From Chloroflexota bacterium (GTDB lineage: Bacteria; Chloroflexota; UBA6077; JACCZL01), in contig JADZEM010000041.1 of NCBI GenBank assembly GCA_020850535.1, positions 1-64,000 on the forward strand: a stretch of DNA of 64,000 bases, read 5' to 3'. The first letter of the stretch is position 1. The number at the start of each line of letters is the position of its first letter. Shown in pieces: positions 1 through 64,000 of the stretch. The notes under the pieces are model-generated. The model was not told the origin of the DNA and searched no databases. It saw only the letters and a program-made list of their open reading frames with translations. Made by a program: the position numbers and the translations under genes.

Positions 1-178
1 GGAACGGGCGGTCGGGGGTTGAAACCCCCGCCTACAGTCACACCGTCGCTGCGCGACGGAGACCGGGAACAGCCGTCGTCCGGTGAGACTGGAGCGTCGC
101 GCAGCGACTGCAGGATCGTAGGCGGGGCTTTCAAGCCCCGACGCGGCGGCACGACCACATCAACATGCAATCGCCCTG
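1..178. mobile_element. Family A miniature element, copy 1 (cut by window edge)
   Basis: Non-coding repeat ending with the 17-bp terminal repeat AACATGCAATCGCCCTG at 162-178. Internally it has the same order of small hairpins as the complete copy at 51805-52021 (in reverse orientation): a gggttgaaaccc hairpin, a GTCGCTGCGCGACG segment facing its complement, and a ggggctttcaagcccc hairpin. The left terminus lies outside the window, so a target duplication cannot be tested. It lies 41 bp past the clpP stop codon. Confidence 0.75.
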
Positions 179-31198: not shown

Positions 31199-31432
31199 TC
31201 CGAAAACCTCCGCGTCTCCGAACTGGCGCCTGACATGCACACGACCGGCGTGCATGCCCATCTGGTTGCTGCCGCCCGAGCGGCTCGACGACGGCAACGG
31301 TGGACCCCGCCTGCGTCGGCGGTGCAAGGCACTATAGCCCTGTCTTTCGGGGATGTCCACCCATAGTGTCGCGCTCATATTCACAGGGCGCTGTCCTACA
31401 GACCGGGCGAGCATCCGGCCGGCCCGGCACGC

Positions 31433-31565
31433 CAGGGCACGTGCATGTTCACACGTGCATGTTCATTGGTGTTCCCGAAACCCGTCGCAGCGCGACGGTG
31501 TACGGTAGGCGGGGCTTTCAAGCCCCGACGAGGCGGCACGACGCGCTCAACATGCAATCGCCCTG
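31433..31565. mobile_element. Family A miniature element, copy 2 (internally deleted)
   Basis: The right end AACATGCAATCGCCCTG (31549-31565) matches the other copies exactly. The left end CAGGGC at 31433 leads into a GTGCATGTTCATTGGTGTTCC stretch shared with the complete copies. About 80 bp of the centre are missing. It is flanked by CCCGGCACGC (31423-31432) and CCCGGCGCGC (31566-31575), a 9-of-10 direct repeat that looks like an aged target duplication. Confidence 0.8.
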
Positions 31566-31884
31566 CCCGGCGCGCTCGTCGGGGTGACGAAGCACCCAGA
31601 CGGTGCTATGGTGCGGGCCGGGCGCTATTGCGTGAGGTCTCCATATGGTGACCGCTCGCCGACATCTTTCGGACTGACCGGGCATGACCCGTCCCGAACC
31701 AGACCGCGATTCCGATTAAGCGGAGTGCAGGCGTCGGCGGAACCCCCAGGCCGCCGTCGCCGCGCGGGCAACGCTGGACGCACCCTTGCTCTGCCCTTCT
31801 GTCATGGGGCGTCCGGGCTGGGGAACGCCACGCCTGCAGTGTGCGTGCCACCGACGGCGTGGCCGCAAATGGTGACGAGTCGGC
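31566..31884. other. Intergenic region without recognised gene
   Basis: This 319-bp stretch separates the family A element from the sensor kinase at 31885. It may carry the kinase promoter, but I see no clear -10/-35 pair, dyad, riboswitch core or coding frame of typical composition. Confidence 0.5.
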
Positions 31885-36060: not shown

Positions 36061-36128
36061 CAGAGTGATTGCATGGTTGCTCATGTTCCCAAGCACGGCG
36101 AATCGGGCGGTCAGGGGTTGAAACCCCA
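36061..36128. mobile_element. Family A element, half remnant
   Basis: A degenerate left terminus CAGAGTGATTGCATG at 36061 is followed by CATGTTCCCAAGC and GGCGGTCAGGGGTTGAAACCCC, matching the outer and first inner hairpin of the complete copies. The rest, including the right terminus, is absent. It lies between the DUF433 start and the end of the beta-propeller gene. Confidence 0.65.
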
Positions 36129-50758: not shown

Positions 50759-51310
50759 CTACCCGGCTGGCGGCCTGGGCGCTCCATCAAGCCGACGAAG
50801 ATCGTCCGGGTCTCGGTCGTAAAGCACGAGATAGCGCGGGCCGGCTGGCGTATCGATGACGCCCTGTACCGTTCCCGATTGTCCCGTTGCCTTGACGCGG
50901 ACTCGTGCATCATGTCCGATGGCATCGCCACGCACTCGGTAGATGCGGGCTGACCGGTAGAGGCGATTGCCGACGCTCAGCAGCTCGAAGCGAATGTCGT
51001 GCAACCCATCATCGGTGCCGACTCTCCGTTTCAGATCACGGACGATGTGCTGATTCGGGCCTGCCACGTAGAAGTCGCTGAGATCCAGCTCCGAAATGCT
51101 CAATGCAGGGAGCAGCTCTAGGATTGCAGCATAGATGGGGCGCGAGCCAATCTGCCCACCGTCCGGCGACGAGATGGCCAGTTGCCAGACGCCGGTTTCG
51201 TCGTCCTGGAGCCAGGCTGCAACGTCGATCACGAAGCCGCGCGCTTCCAGAGCGTTGACAATAGCCCGCCCCGCTTCAAGGTCGACATCTACCAGTGTTG
51301 TCTTGTCCAT
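50759..51310 (-). CDS. Uncharacterised partner of a HEPN protein, with SH3/KOW-like C-terminus
   Basis: A 183-residue soluble protein that I cannot assign to a family. The N-terminal two thirds are alpha/beta (TLVDVDLEAGRAIVNALEAR, WLQDDETGVWQLAISSP, LSDFYVAGPNQHIVRDL). The C-terminal 45 residues look like a small SH3/KOW barrel: ARVRVKATGQSGTVQGV, then GPRYLVLYDRDPDDLRRL. Its start lies 22 bp inside the HEPN gene at 51289, a tight overlap that usually means the two products act together. It could be the neutralising or effector partner of a HEPN module; this is inference from gene order. Confidence 0.65.
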   Translation of the reverse strand: MDKTTLVDVDLEAGRAIVNALEARGFVIDVAAWLQDDETGVWQLAISSPDGGQIGSRPIYAAILELLPALSISELDLSDFYVAGPNQHIVRDLKRRVGTDDGLHDIRFELLSVGNRLYRSARIYRVRGDAIGHDARVRVKATGQSGTVQGVIDTPAGPRYLVLYDRDPDDLRRLDGAPRPPAG

Positions 51311-51705
51311 TCCAACACTCCATCGGGAACGGCGTCAACGGCAGCAAGAAGTTGCCACGCTTCCTGCATGGTCCAGCTCTCGTACCGGCTCTGCTCGGAC
51401 CATTTGAGGGTATCTTCCCAGTTCACGCTGAACTGCGGCGAATGCCGCATCCGTGCTGCCAGGACATCGCTCAGGCCGGCGAGTCTCACAAGGTCTCGAA
51501 TGCTATGGGTGAAAAGGTCACGCGAGTAGGTGGCGCTCGGCGGGTACTCGTACTGCCGGATCTGCCGCGCAATGCACGCTTTGAGACCGCACTCGACGGC
51601 ATAGCCTGCCAGGTAGTATGCCCCAGAGTAGCGAGCACTCTGGAAGAGGGCCTTCGCAGCGTCCAGGCGCTCCTCTGCCAACCGTTGGAGATCAGACCGG
51701 TTCAC
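51289..51705 (-). CDS. HEPN-domain protein
   Basis: A 138-residue helical protein. LAEERLDAAKALFQSARYSG and AYYLAGYAVECGLKACIA form the two core HEPN helices. The family includes RNase toxins and nucleotidyltransferase partners. The typical R-x4-6-H catalytic motif is not clearly recognisable, so it may be a binding rather than a nuclease member. GGAGGGGG four bases upstream supports the GTG at 51705, whereas the longer frame adds 27 unlike residues. It is translationally overlapped with the downstream partner at 50759. A family A element ends up immediately upstream, at 51805-52021. Confidence 0.75.
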   Translation of the reverse strand: MNRSDLQRLAEERLDAAKALFQSARYSGAYYLAGYAVECGLKACIARQIRQYEYPPSATYSRDLFTHSIRDLVRLAGLSDVLAARMRHSPQFSVNWEDTLKWSEQSRYESWTMQEAWQLLAAVDAVPDGVLEWTRQHW

Positions 51706-51804
51706 GCCCCCTCCGCGCCACAGCCTCGCGACCGGAACATGCGTTCTGGTGGACGCTACCATCGCAGCCGGGGGTTGCGCCGTCAAGACAGGCCGGCAGC
51801 CATC

Positions 51805-52021
51805 CAGGGCGATTGCATGTTGATGTCGTCGTGCCGCCGCGTCGGGGCTTGAAAGCCCCGCCTACCATCCTGCAGTCGCTGCGCGACGCGCCAGTCGCAC
51901 CAGTGCCTGCCGTTCCCGACGGCCGTCGCGCAGCGACGGCATGCGTGTAGGCGGGGACGTCAGTCCCCGACCGCCCGTTCCAAGATGCTTCGGGGACACC
52001 AATGAACATGCAATCGCCCTG
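51805..52021. mobile_element. Family A miniature element, complete copy with target duplication
   Basis: The 217-bp element has perfect 17-bp termini CAGGGCGATTGCATGTT (51805-51821) and its complement (52005-52021). Inner inverted segments are CCCCGCCTAC against GTAGGCGGGG, and GTCGCTGCGCGACG against CGTCGCGCAGCGAC, with two small local hairpins. It is flanked by perfect 10-bp direct repeats GGCAGCCATC at 51795-51804 and 52022-52031. No coding capacity is evident. This is the structure of a non-autonomous, transposed element. Confidence 0.88.
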
Positions 52022-52098
52022 GGCAGCCATCGCCTGGACGCTGGCGGGCACGCCTGGGACGGGGTGCGCCGGCCGCGTGTTGGCCGTTGCGGAGAGGG

Positions 52099-52365
52099 TC
52101 AGCCGCCGGCCACGGGCGCGAACAACTCGATGGTGTCGCCGGCGTCCAGCGTCACGTCGCGCGGGCAGGTCTCGCCATTCTTCGCGACGAGCCAGACCTC
52201 TTTCCGCGGGATCCCCAGCCGGTCCAGCAGGGCTTCGATGGTGATGCCCGGCTCAATCGGGATGTCGATGCCGCCGTAGCTGCGCGTGAAGTAGACGGTC
52301 AGCTCGCCGTGGGGATGCACGGTGATCGTGGGTGCAGCCGACTCGCCGGTCGTCTGAGTAGTCAT
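52099..52365 (-). CDS. MoaD/ThiS-like ubiquitin-fold sulfur carrier
   Basis: An 88-residue protein with the beta-grasp pattern TITVHPHGELTVYF, IEPGITIEALLDRLGIP, VWLVAKNG and DTIELFAPVAGG. It ends in the Gly-Gly that is activated by MoeB/ThiF-type enzymes to carry sulfur. GAGGAG nine bases before the ATG at 52365 sets the start. AOR-family loci often include such a carrier for pterin-cofactor synthesis, and an AOR gene lies 1.5 kb away, so a role in tungstopterin assembly is plausible. Thiamine or other sulfur transfer cannot be excluded. Confidence 0.85.
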   Translation of the reverse strand: MTTQTTGESAAPTITVHPHGELTVYFTRSYGGIDIPIEPGITIEALLDRLGIPRKEVWLVAKNGETCPRDVTLDAGDTIELFAPVAGG

Positions 52366-52739
52366 GGACTGGGCTCCTCGGGGCCGTTGGGGATCAAGGT
52401 GCCGTGGTTGGGCATCGGGCGGTGACGGTGTGCAACAGAGCCGTTCGGCATGAAGCGTACGCCATCCGGGCGCGACCGGCCCGAACAGCCGGCGTATCGC
52501 CGACGAGTTTGACGCAGCCGCCGTGCCAGCCATCCCTTTCCGTGCACGGGATGCGTTGACTGATCGCTCCTTGCACAGACATCTTCCGTGCTGCCCGGTT
52601 GGTTTGAGGAGGCTGGCCGGGCAGCGTTCCATTCCGCCAGCCAGATGGGCAGCCAGCCAGATGGGCGGCCAGCCAGATGGGCGGCCAGCCAGCACCGTGC
52701 CAGCGTGCTGCCAACGCCGCACCGCTGTGCTGCTCGCGC
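52366..52739. other. Intergenic region between MoaD-like and FMN reductase genes
   Basis: This 374-bp stretch has no credible gene. It contains the 16-bp tandem array at 52636-52683 near the 3' end of the FMN reductase gene. The MoaD-like promoter should lie near 52370-52450, but I see no clear boxes. Confidence 0.6.
52636..52683. repeat. 16-bp tandem repeat, three copies
   Basis: GCCAGCCAGATGGGCG (the first copy ends in A) occurs at 52636, 52652 and 52668, with a partial fourth. It is 57 bp beyond the stop of the minus-strand FMN reductase gene. Confidence 0.92.
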
Positions 52740-57324: not shown

Positions 57325-57517
57325 TGTCATCCTGAGCGCAGCGAAGGACCTCACCCGCTGACGCGAGCGTTGACGGTCAGCGGGCGACGGGAGTATTGAC
57401 GCTCGGAGGGTGGCACGAGCGTTGACGGTCAGCGGGCGACGGGAGTATTGACGCTCGGAGGGTGGCACGAGCGTTGACGGTCAGCGGGTGAGGTCCTTCG
57501 CTGCGCTCAGGATGACA
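57325..57517. repeat. Family B hairpin element, copy 4, with internal 52-bp duplication
   Basis: The termini are a perfect inverted repeat of about 38 bp (TGTCATCCTGAGCGCAGCGA... and its complement ending 57517). Between them a 52-bp unit beginning CGAGCGTTGACGGTCAGCGG occurs at 57364 and 57416, with a partial third from 57468. Copies 2 and 3 lack this expansion. Confidence 0.9.
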
Positions 57518-63528: not shown

Positions 63529-64000
63529 GCAGATGCTCCTCTAGATCGTTCGAGAGCGGGCCAGGCGCACGCCACCGCGCTCGTAGGGACGTTCAGCCCC
63601 GCGCGTGACGTGACAGCGTTGTTGTGACCGCACCACTATGGACTATATACCCTGCCCGCTCCTGACGGTATGTCCGAAGGGGACAGGGCGATTGCACGTT
63701 GGGCGGGTCGCGCGGAGTGGTCGGGGCTTGAAAGCCCCGCCTACCATCCTGCAGTCGCTTCGCGACGCTCCAGTCGCACCAGTCCCTGCCGTTCCCGGCG
63801 TCCGTCGCGCAGCGACTGAATGCGTGTAGGCGGGGGTTTCAACCCCCGACTGCCCGTCGTACCACGATGTGGAAACACCAACGAGCATGCAACTGCCCTG
63901 GTCCGAAGGGGACAGGCATTGAGGGGACACGCCGCGGGATGCTTGCCGGCCGACGCCCAGGCTGCGACGATACCTCCGCACCGTGAGGAGGGGCTCATGT
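63529..64000. other. Terminal non-coding region
   Basis: It contains the TerC-like gene leader and family A copy at 63684-63901. The last 100 bp hold no recognisable gene; open frames here lie within the repeat and are rejected. Confidence 0.7.
63684..63901. mobile_element. Family A miniature element, complete copy with target duplication
   Basis: The 218-bp element runs from CAGGGCGATTGCACGTT to GCATGCAACTGCCCTG, with the same internal hairpin order as the 51.8-kb copy. It is flanked by perfect 11-bp direct repeats TCCGAAGGGGA at 63673-63683 and 63902-63912. The match extends by chance or design into the terminal CAGG. Confidence 0.88.

Follow-up and report, generated by a model that had tools for sequence, protein, structure and literature searches.

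A MITE with ISAs1-type ends has several hundred copies and forms head-to-tail multimers in a Chloroflexota draft genome

REP, REPIN, and BIME repeats are associated with RAYT and are not known to have target duplications. Insertion sequences (IS) can form tandem dimers, such as (IS30)2 and (IS21)2, in which the two copies are arranged head-to-tail with a short spacer between them. The ISApl1 dimer is reported to have the same arrangement (PMC6349718). Bacterial MITEs with a known parent include MITEPye1 (IS1182 family), which has 1-3 copies (PMC11578231), and the TIMEs (Tn3 family), which usually have one copy (PMC4133298).

The repeat that we describe here resembles each of these systems in part. 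It lies in the genome of a Chloroflexota bacterium, in a stretch of 64,000 nucleotides that we will call the window. (The window comes from contig C41; the draft genome totals 7.65 Mb over 227 contigs and is 96% complete.) Like REP, REPIN, and BIME repeats, the element is palindromic, intergenic, and present in hundreds of copies, but it has target duplications and ISAs1-type ends. It shares its CAGGGCRATYGCATN terminal inverted repeats and its 10-bp duplication with the IS of the ISAs1 family (NF033564; PF13808 + PF01609). However, its interior is unrelated to the IS copies that we examined, and we rejected its classification as an ISAs1-family IS proper because it is 217 bp long and non-coding and lacks the ~350-amino-acid DDE transposase. 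It is also multi-copy and is bounded by 17-bp terminal inverted repeats, which are features of a MITE.

Among bacterial MITEs, MITEPye1 (PMC11578231) and the TIMEs (PMC4133298) are likewise short and non-coding, with a long stem-loop, parent-type ends, target duplications, and a preference for intergenic locations. The present element works like these IS-parented MITEs, but it differs in its ISAs1 parentage (discussed below), its hundreds of copies, and its unusual tendency to form head-to-tail multimers with fixed 10-bp spacers. Compared to the tandem IS dimers, including that of ISApl1, the MITE's spacer is 10 bp, which is the length of the duplication, and its dimers are widespread, non-coding, and not transient intermediates. 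In the open-access literature that we searched, we found neither comparable multimers of bacterial MITEs nor an ISAs1-derived MITE; we claim no priority. Overall, this short gene-less DNA, with several hundred copies in one Chloroflexi genome, is an unusually abundant case of a known type of parasite.

The window contains 8 matches to the element's ends with up to 3 mismatches, versus 0.13 expected. As the initial annotation had described, the copy at 51.8 kb has perfectly inverted 17-bp ends (CAGGGCGATTGCATGTT) and is flanked by a perfect direct repeat (GGCAGCCATC on both sides), and the copy at 31.4 kb has flanks that agree at 9 of 10 positions (Table 1). The 51.8-kb copy sits in the plus orientation; the ORFs on either side of it (51289-51786 and 52099-52722) are both on the minus strand. 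The copy at 63.7 kb had been assigned a perfect 11-bp repeat; the repeat is exact, but it is 12 bp long. This copy (63672-63912 with its repeats) is the sole clear exception to the 10-bp rule described below, and CAGG follows the repeat on both sides. The window also contains a tandem array of 26-bp units of two alternating types, one of which is TGACGCGAGCGTTGACGGTCAGCGGG (57333-57514). A dispersed repeat, GTCATCCTGAGCGCAGCGAAGGACCTC, adjoins the array and recurs near 23.7, 27.5, and 29.5 kb.

Table 1. Copies of the element and related features, with positions in the window or as contig:position elsewhere in the genome.
Feature	Position	Strand	Basis or remark
Intact 217-bp MITE copy, reference orientation	51805..52021	+	96% identity to 54-copy consensus
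Left 10-bp target duplication, GGCAGCCATC	51795..51804	.	sequence
Right 10-bp target duplication, GGCAGCCATC	52022..52031	.	sequence
Left terminal inverted repeat, ISAs1-type	51805..51821	+	end search and ISAs1 end comparison
Right terminal inverted repeat, ISAs1-type	52005..52021	-	end search and ISAs1 end comparison
Inner palindrome, left arm (partner 51924-51971)	51841..51888	+	inverted-repeat listing and fold
Inner palindrome, right arm	51924..51971	-	inverted-repeat listing and fold
Second full copy, 83% to consensus, 3 mismatches in right end	63684..63900	+	sequence
Left 12-bp direct repeat, GTCCGAAGGGGA	63672..63683	.	sequence
Right 12-bp direct repeat, GTCCGAAGGGGA	63901..63912	.	sequence
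133-bp copy, partly decayed or deleted	31433..31565	-	sequence, profile search
Flanks of the 133-bp copy, CCCGGCACGC and CCCGGCGCGC (9/10)	31423..31432 and 31566..31575	.	sequence
Fourth copy, cut by contig start (model 1-176)	1..178	-	profile search
Weak end fragment of the MITE family	36061..36127	-	nhmmer E 6.8e-8
Insertions with empty paralogues	C19:21699 (six empty paralogues aligned), C143:92248, C3:17323		
Dimers and trimers with exact outer 10-bp duplication	C127:7162, C217:10268 (trimer), C141:7939, C142:33828, C21:4915, C219:48451, C13:5310, C143:57178, C170:8422, C19:12033, C38:7841		
412-bp composites	C10:11542, C38:7841 (exact outer duplication), C143:31102, C143:64042		

Across the genome, a search for the 17-bp terminus, which the initial annotation had suggested, gave 684 matches (347 + 337) with up to 2 mismatches, while the reversed control gave none (0 + 0). 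This end count would correspond to about 340 elements, or near 1% of the 7.65-Mb genome. With a profile of the element, we found 198 copies, of which 118 were near full length, in 2.09 Mb of the genome sequence that was picked partly for the presence of copies. The identity of 54 copies to their consensus ranged from 68% to 97%. The MITE accounts for many of the breaks in the draft genome. Among 28 other genomes of the class, we found no copy of the MITE's DNA. Single end matches in four genomes (G018, G021, G054, and G058) had no MITE around any of them, and we disregarded two exact 17-mers in viral contigs as chance matches, as the rest of the element was absent.

To tabulate the flanks, we counted each single element or multimer as one unit if both of its ends were usable. 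An exact 10-bp flanking repeat was present in 31 of 70 units; 43 had a repeat with at most 1 mismatch, and 48 had one with at most 2. For lengths of 7, 8, 9, 11, and 12 bp, an exact repeat was found in 0, 0, 1, 0, and 1 of the 70 units, which is the background. The counts thus single out 10 bp as the length of the target duplication. The duplications of 10-11 bp that had been proposed are real, with their length corrected to 10 bp. The number of flanking repeats is far above the shuffle expectation: in an earlier set of 60 units, 31 had a repeat with at most 1 mismatch, as compared to a mean of 0.5 and a maximum of 4 when the right flanks were shuffled between copies (2000 shuffles). A recognisable duplication is absent from about a third of the units, and multimer neighbours or decay account for some of these.

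Sites without the element are also informative. At three insertions in repeated DNA (Table 1), the other copies of that DNA lack the element and contain the 10-mer just once. So the flanking repeats were not there before the element, contrary to the condition under which the initial annotation would have been refuted. One source of empty sites is a second dispersed repeat, gatccctcgactgcgttcgcacgctcactccgctcgggatgacgg (L127, C19:20001-40000), which is the insertion target near C19:21.7 kb and has at least 10 paralogues. Also, at C65:17108, an element splits phnA, the gene for phosphonoacetate hydrolase, and has AAGCCCCCGG on both sides. The halves of phnA align to residues 2-209 (upstream) and 212-383 (downstream) of 1EI6, a phosphonoacetate hydrolase, and the two codons that are missing between them fit one copy of the 10-mer. 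The split gene, the single-copy empty sites, and the different duplication at each site bear out the initial annotation's reading of these repeats as products of transposition.

A search for larger elements with the same ends found a 1256-bp IS in a sister genus of the same family (genome G001, contig C70:1658-2913; record JACCZL010000153.1, Chloroflexi bacterium MGR_bin229). Its ends are identical to the MITE's at 17/17 and 16/17 positions, and its transposase matches NF033564 (transpos_ISAs1, E = 4.5e-119) as well as PF13808 and PF01609. The transposase gene has a frameshift near the C-terminus, and no duplication is visible in the flanks of this IS. We also collected independent ISAs1 elements by their proteins, not by their ends. 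Most of these, from Anaerolineales, Gammaproteobacteria, and other groups, have CAGGGCRATYGCAT-type ends. Exact 10-bp duplications were found at the ISAs1 elements L179, L181, L183, and L194.

Given its sequence, its duplication length, and the empty sites, we are confident that the element is an ISAs1-type MITE, which would be mobilised by an ISAs1-family DDE transposase with a 10-bp duplication; ISAs1 is the family that the initial annotation could not name. We propose that the transposase acts in trans here. It would recognise the 17-bp CAGGGCRATYGCATN-type ends of the nearly self-complementary 217-bp MITE, and a 10-bp staggered cut would leave a 10-bp direct repeat at each new site. The ends alone would suffice for movement. 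Insertions in genes would mostly be lost, which would leave the surviving copies between genes. With this assignment, an orphan repeat gains a parent family, and ISAs1 joins the IS families that have had a MITE burst. The insertions, empty sites, and duplications together provide a clean 10-bp rule for target cutting of the ISAs1 type.

We found no intact ISAs1 gene in the MITE's own genome, which is a 96%-complete draft, and repeats often drop out of such assemblies. The genome does contain two damaged copies: an interrupted one on C136, whose ends differ slightly (CAGGGGGATTGCATAACC), and a 5' fragment on C187, whose ends are CAGGGCGATTGTATAGT. The active source may have been lost from the genome, or it may be located in the unassembled part. 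Between its ends, the MITE shows no evident similarity to the IS copies, so it did not arise simply by internal deletion from any known copy. The C136 copy (L071, G000:C136, 2343-8785) is the genome's best ISAs1 gene. The ~5.5 kb that interrupt it include a resolvase-like recombinase ORF and a group II intron (Rfam RF00029), which has a reverse-transcriptase-like ORF.

Palindromic, intergenic repeats with a high copy number could instead be REP/REPIN-like palindromes that are moved by RAYT (a Y1 transposase), or they could be a family of regulatory RNAs. Neither would account for the exact 10-bp duplications or for the presence of the same inverted ends on an ISAs1 element, and an Rfam search of the window gave no match. 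We consider this explanation extremely unlikely.

The nested palindromes had been expected to fold into a multi-arm structure. Instead, the reference copy is predicted to fold into a single long, imperfect hairpin that the terminal repeats close (-75.4 kcal/mol and z = -7.9 as DNA; -128.4 kcal/mol and z = -8.3 as RNA). Some copies are 108-bp versions that lack model positions ~60-157 and retain the outer ~59 bp on each side. Because these versions have exact or near-exact duplications of their own, the interior of the MITE is dispensable for movement. We rejected the idea that the inner palindrome (GTCGGGG..TTGAAA..CCCCGCCTAC) is a captured independent repeat, as it is almost confined to elements or to the neighbourhood of element ends. 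One inner palindrome without recognisable ends lies at C41:87047-87188 (L109; model 31-172), and a pair at C13:119272-119384 resembles it.

Few of the copies interrupt genes. With a home-made gene finder that was run on the joined flanks (with the element removed), only 5 of 92 insertions were inside predicted genes, as compared to 86% of positions drawn at random. Where the two neighbouring genes are co-directional, the element is antiparallel to transcription in 37 of 48 cases, even though it is nearly palindromic; for the first count (11 in 46), the bias had a binomial p of ~5e-4. The 51.8-kb copy follows this pattern.

Where copies of the MITE are neighbours, they are head-to-tail at all 39 of 39 junctions, and the spacer is exactly 10 bp at 36 of these. 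The same spacers recur. ATGCTGCTAC is found at 63 places in the genome, 52 of which have an identical 25-mer, and AGTCACGAAC is found at 17 places; there are also several rarer families. The outer duplications vary among multimers with recurring spacers, and at least 11 dimers or trimers are flanked by an exact outer 10-bp duplication that is unlike their spacer (Table 1). These patterns suggest that a copy in tandem was formed at a target duplication, which was left as the spacer, and that the spread of the multimer came afterwards. With their fossil 10-bp spacer, the head-to-tail multimers are probably a propagating form, either by composite transposition or by the conversion of monomers in place. 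The recurring spacers are natural barcodes for tracing the spread of tandem multimers, which is rare for bacterial MITEs.

Inferences about multimers are limited by the assembly, since numerous contig ends fall within dimers. This feature, along with several lineage-A dimers that lack matching outer flanks, might suggest that the multimers are artefacts of short-read assembly. But a chimeric join would not yield an exact 10-bp duplication around at least 11 multimers in unique DNA, and the multimers have spacer variants and unit-specific substitutions. We therefore consider an artefact to be improbable.

As to how multimers spread, one possibility is composite movement of whole dimers and trimers, in which the transposase would use the outermost ends of an element-10 bp-element array and the fossil inner spacer would be carried along. 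The consistent orientation and spacing of the junctions, the recurrence of the two main spacers between differing outer flanks, and the 11 listed multimers with exact outer duplications all fit this. Also, the inner ends are more decayed than the outer ends (means of 1.9 and 1.0 mismatches, p = 5e-4), which is expected if only the outer ends are used. However, composite transposition predicts that within a spacer lineage, the outer quarters of dimers should be related, and their relatedness was at background. This quarter-linkage test weakens simple composite transposition as the sole origin of dimers, and we give composite movement slightly less than an even chance.

Alternatively, the dimers could owe their spread to gene conversion or ectopic homologous recombination. 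With a dimer as the template, the spacer block would be copied into a monomer that is already at a locus, which would become a dimer there and retain its own outer duplication. In lineage A, the left quarter of the downstream unit does cluster (the nearest neighbour is in the same role at 0.59, versus 0.15 expected). That relatedness is present only in the junction-proximal block and not in the outer quarters, which points to exchange between copies. So do the trimers with mixed spacers, on C69 (C then A), C59 (B then C), and C71 (E then A). On the other hand, the divergence between copies (roughly 5-20%) lowers recombination, and neither the first tandem events nor the faster decay of the inner ends would be explained. 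The argument from linkage is also open to the objection that later shuffling could erase linkage after composite transposition. We view spread by recombination or conversion as a serious contender whose chances are somewhat below even.

There is also a second type of composite, of 412 bp, in which a copy without its first 22-26 bp adjoins a full copy, with 0-4 bp between them (Table 1).
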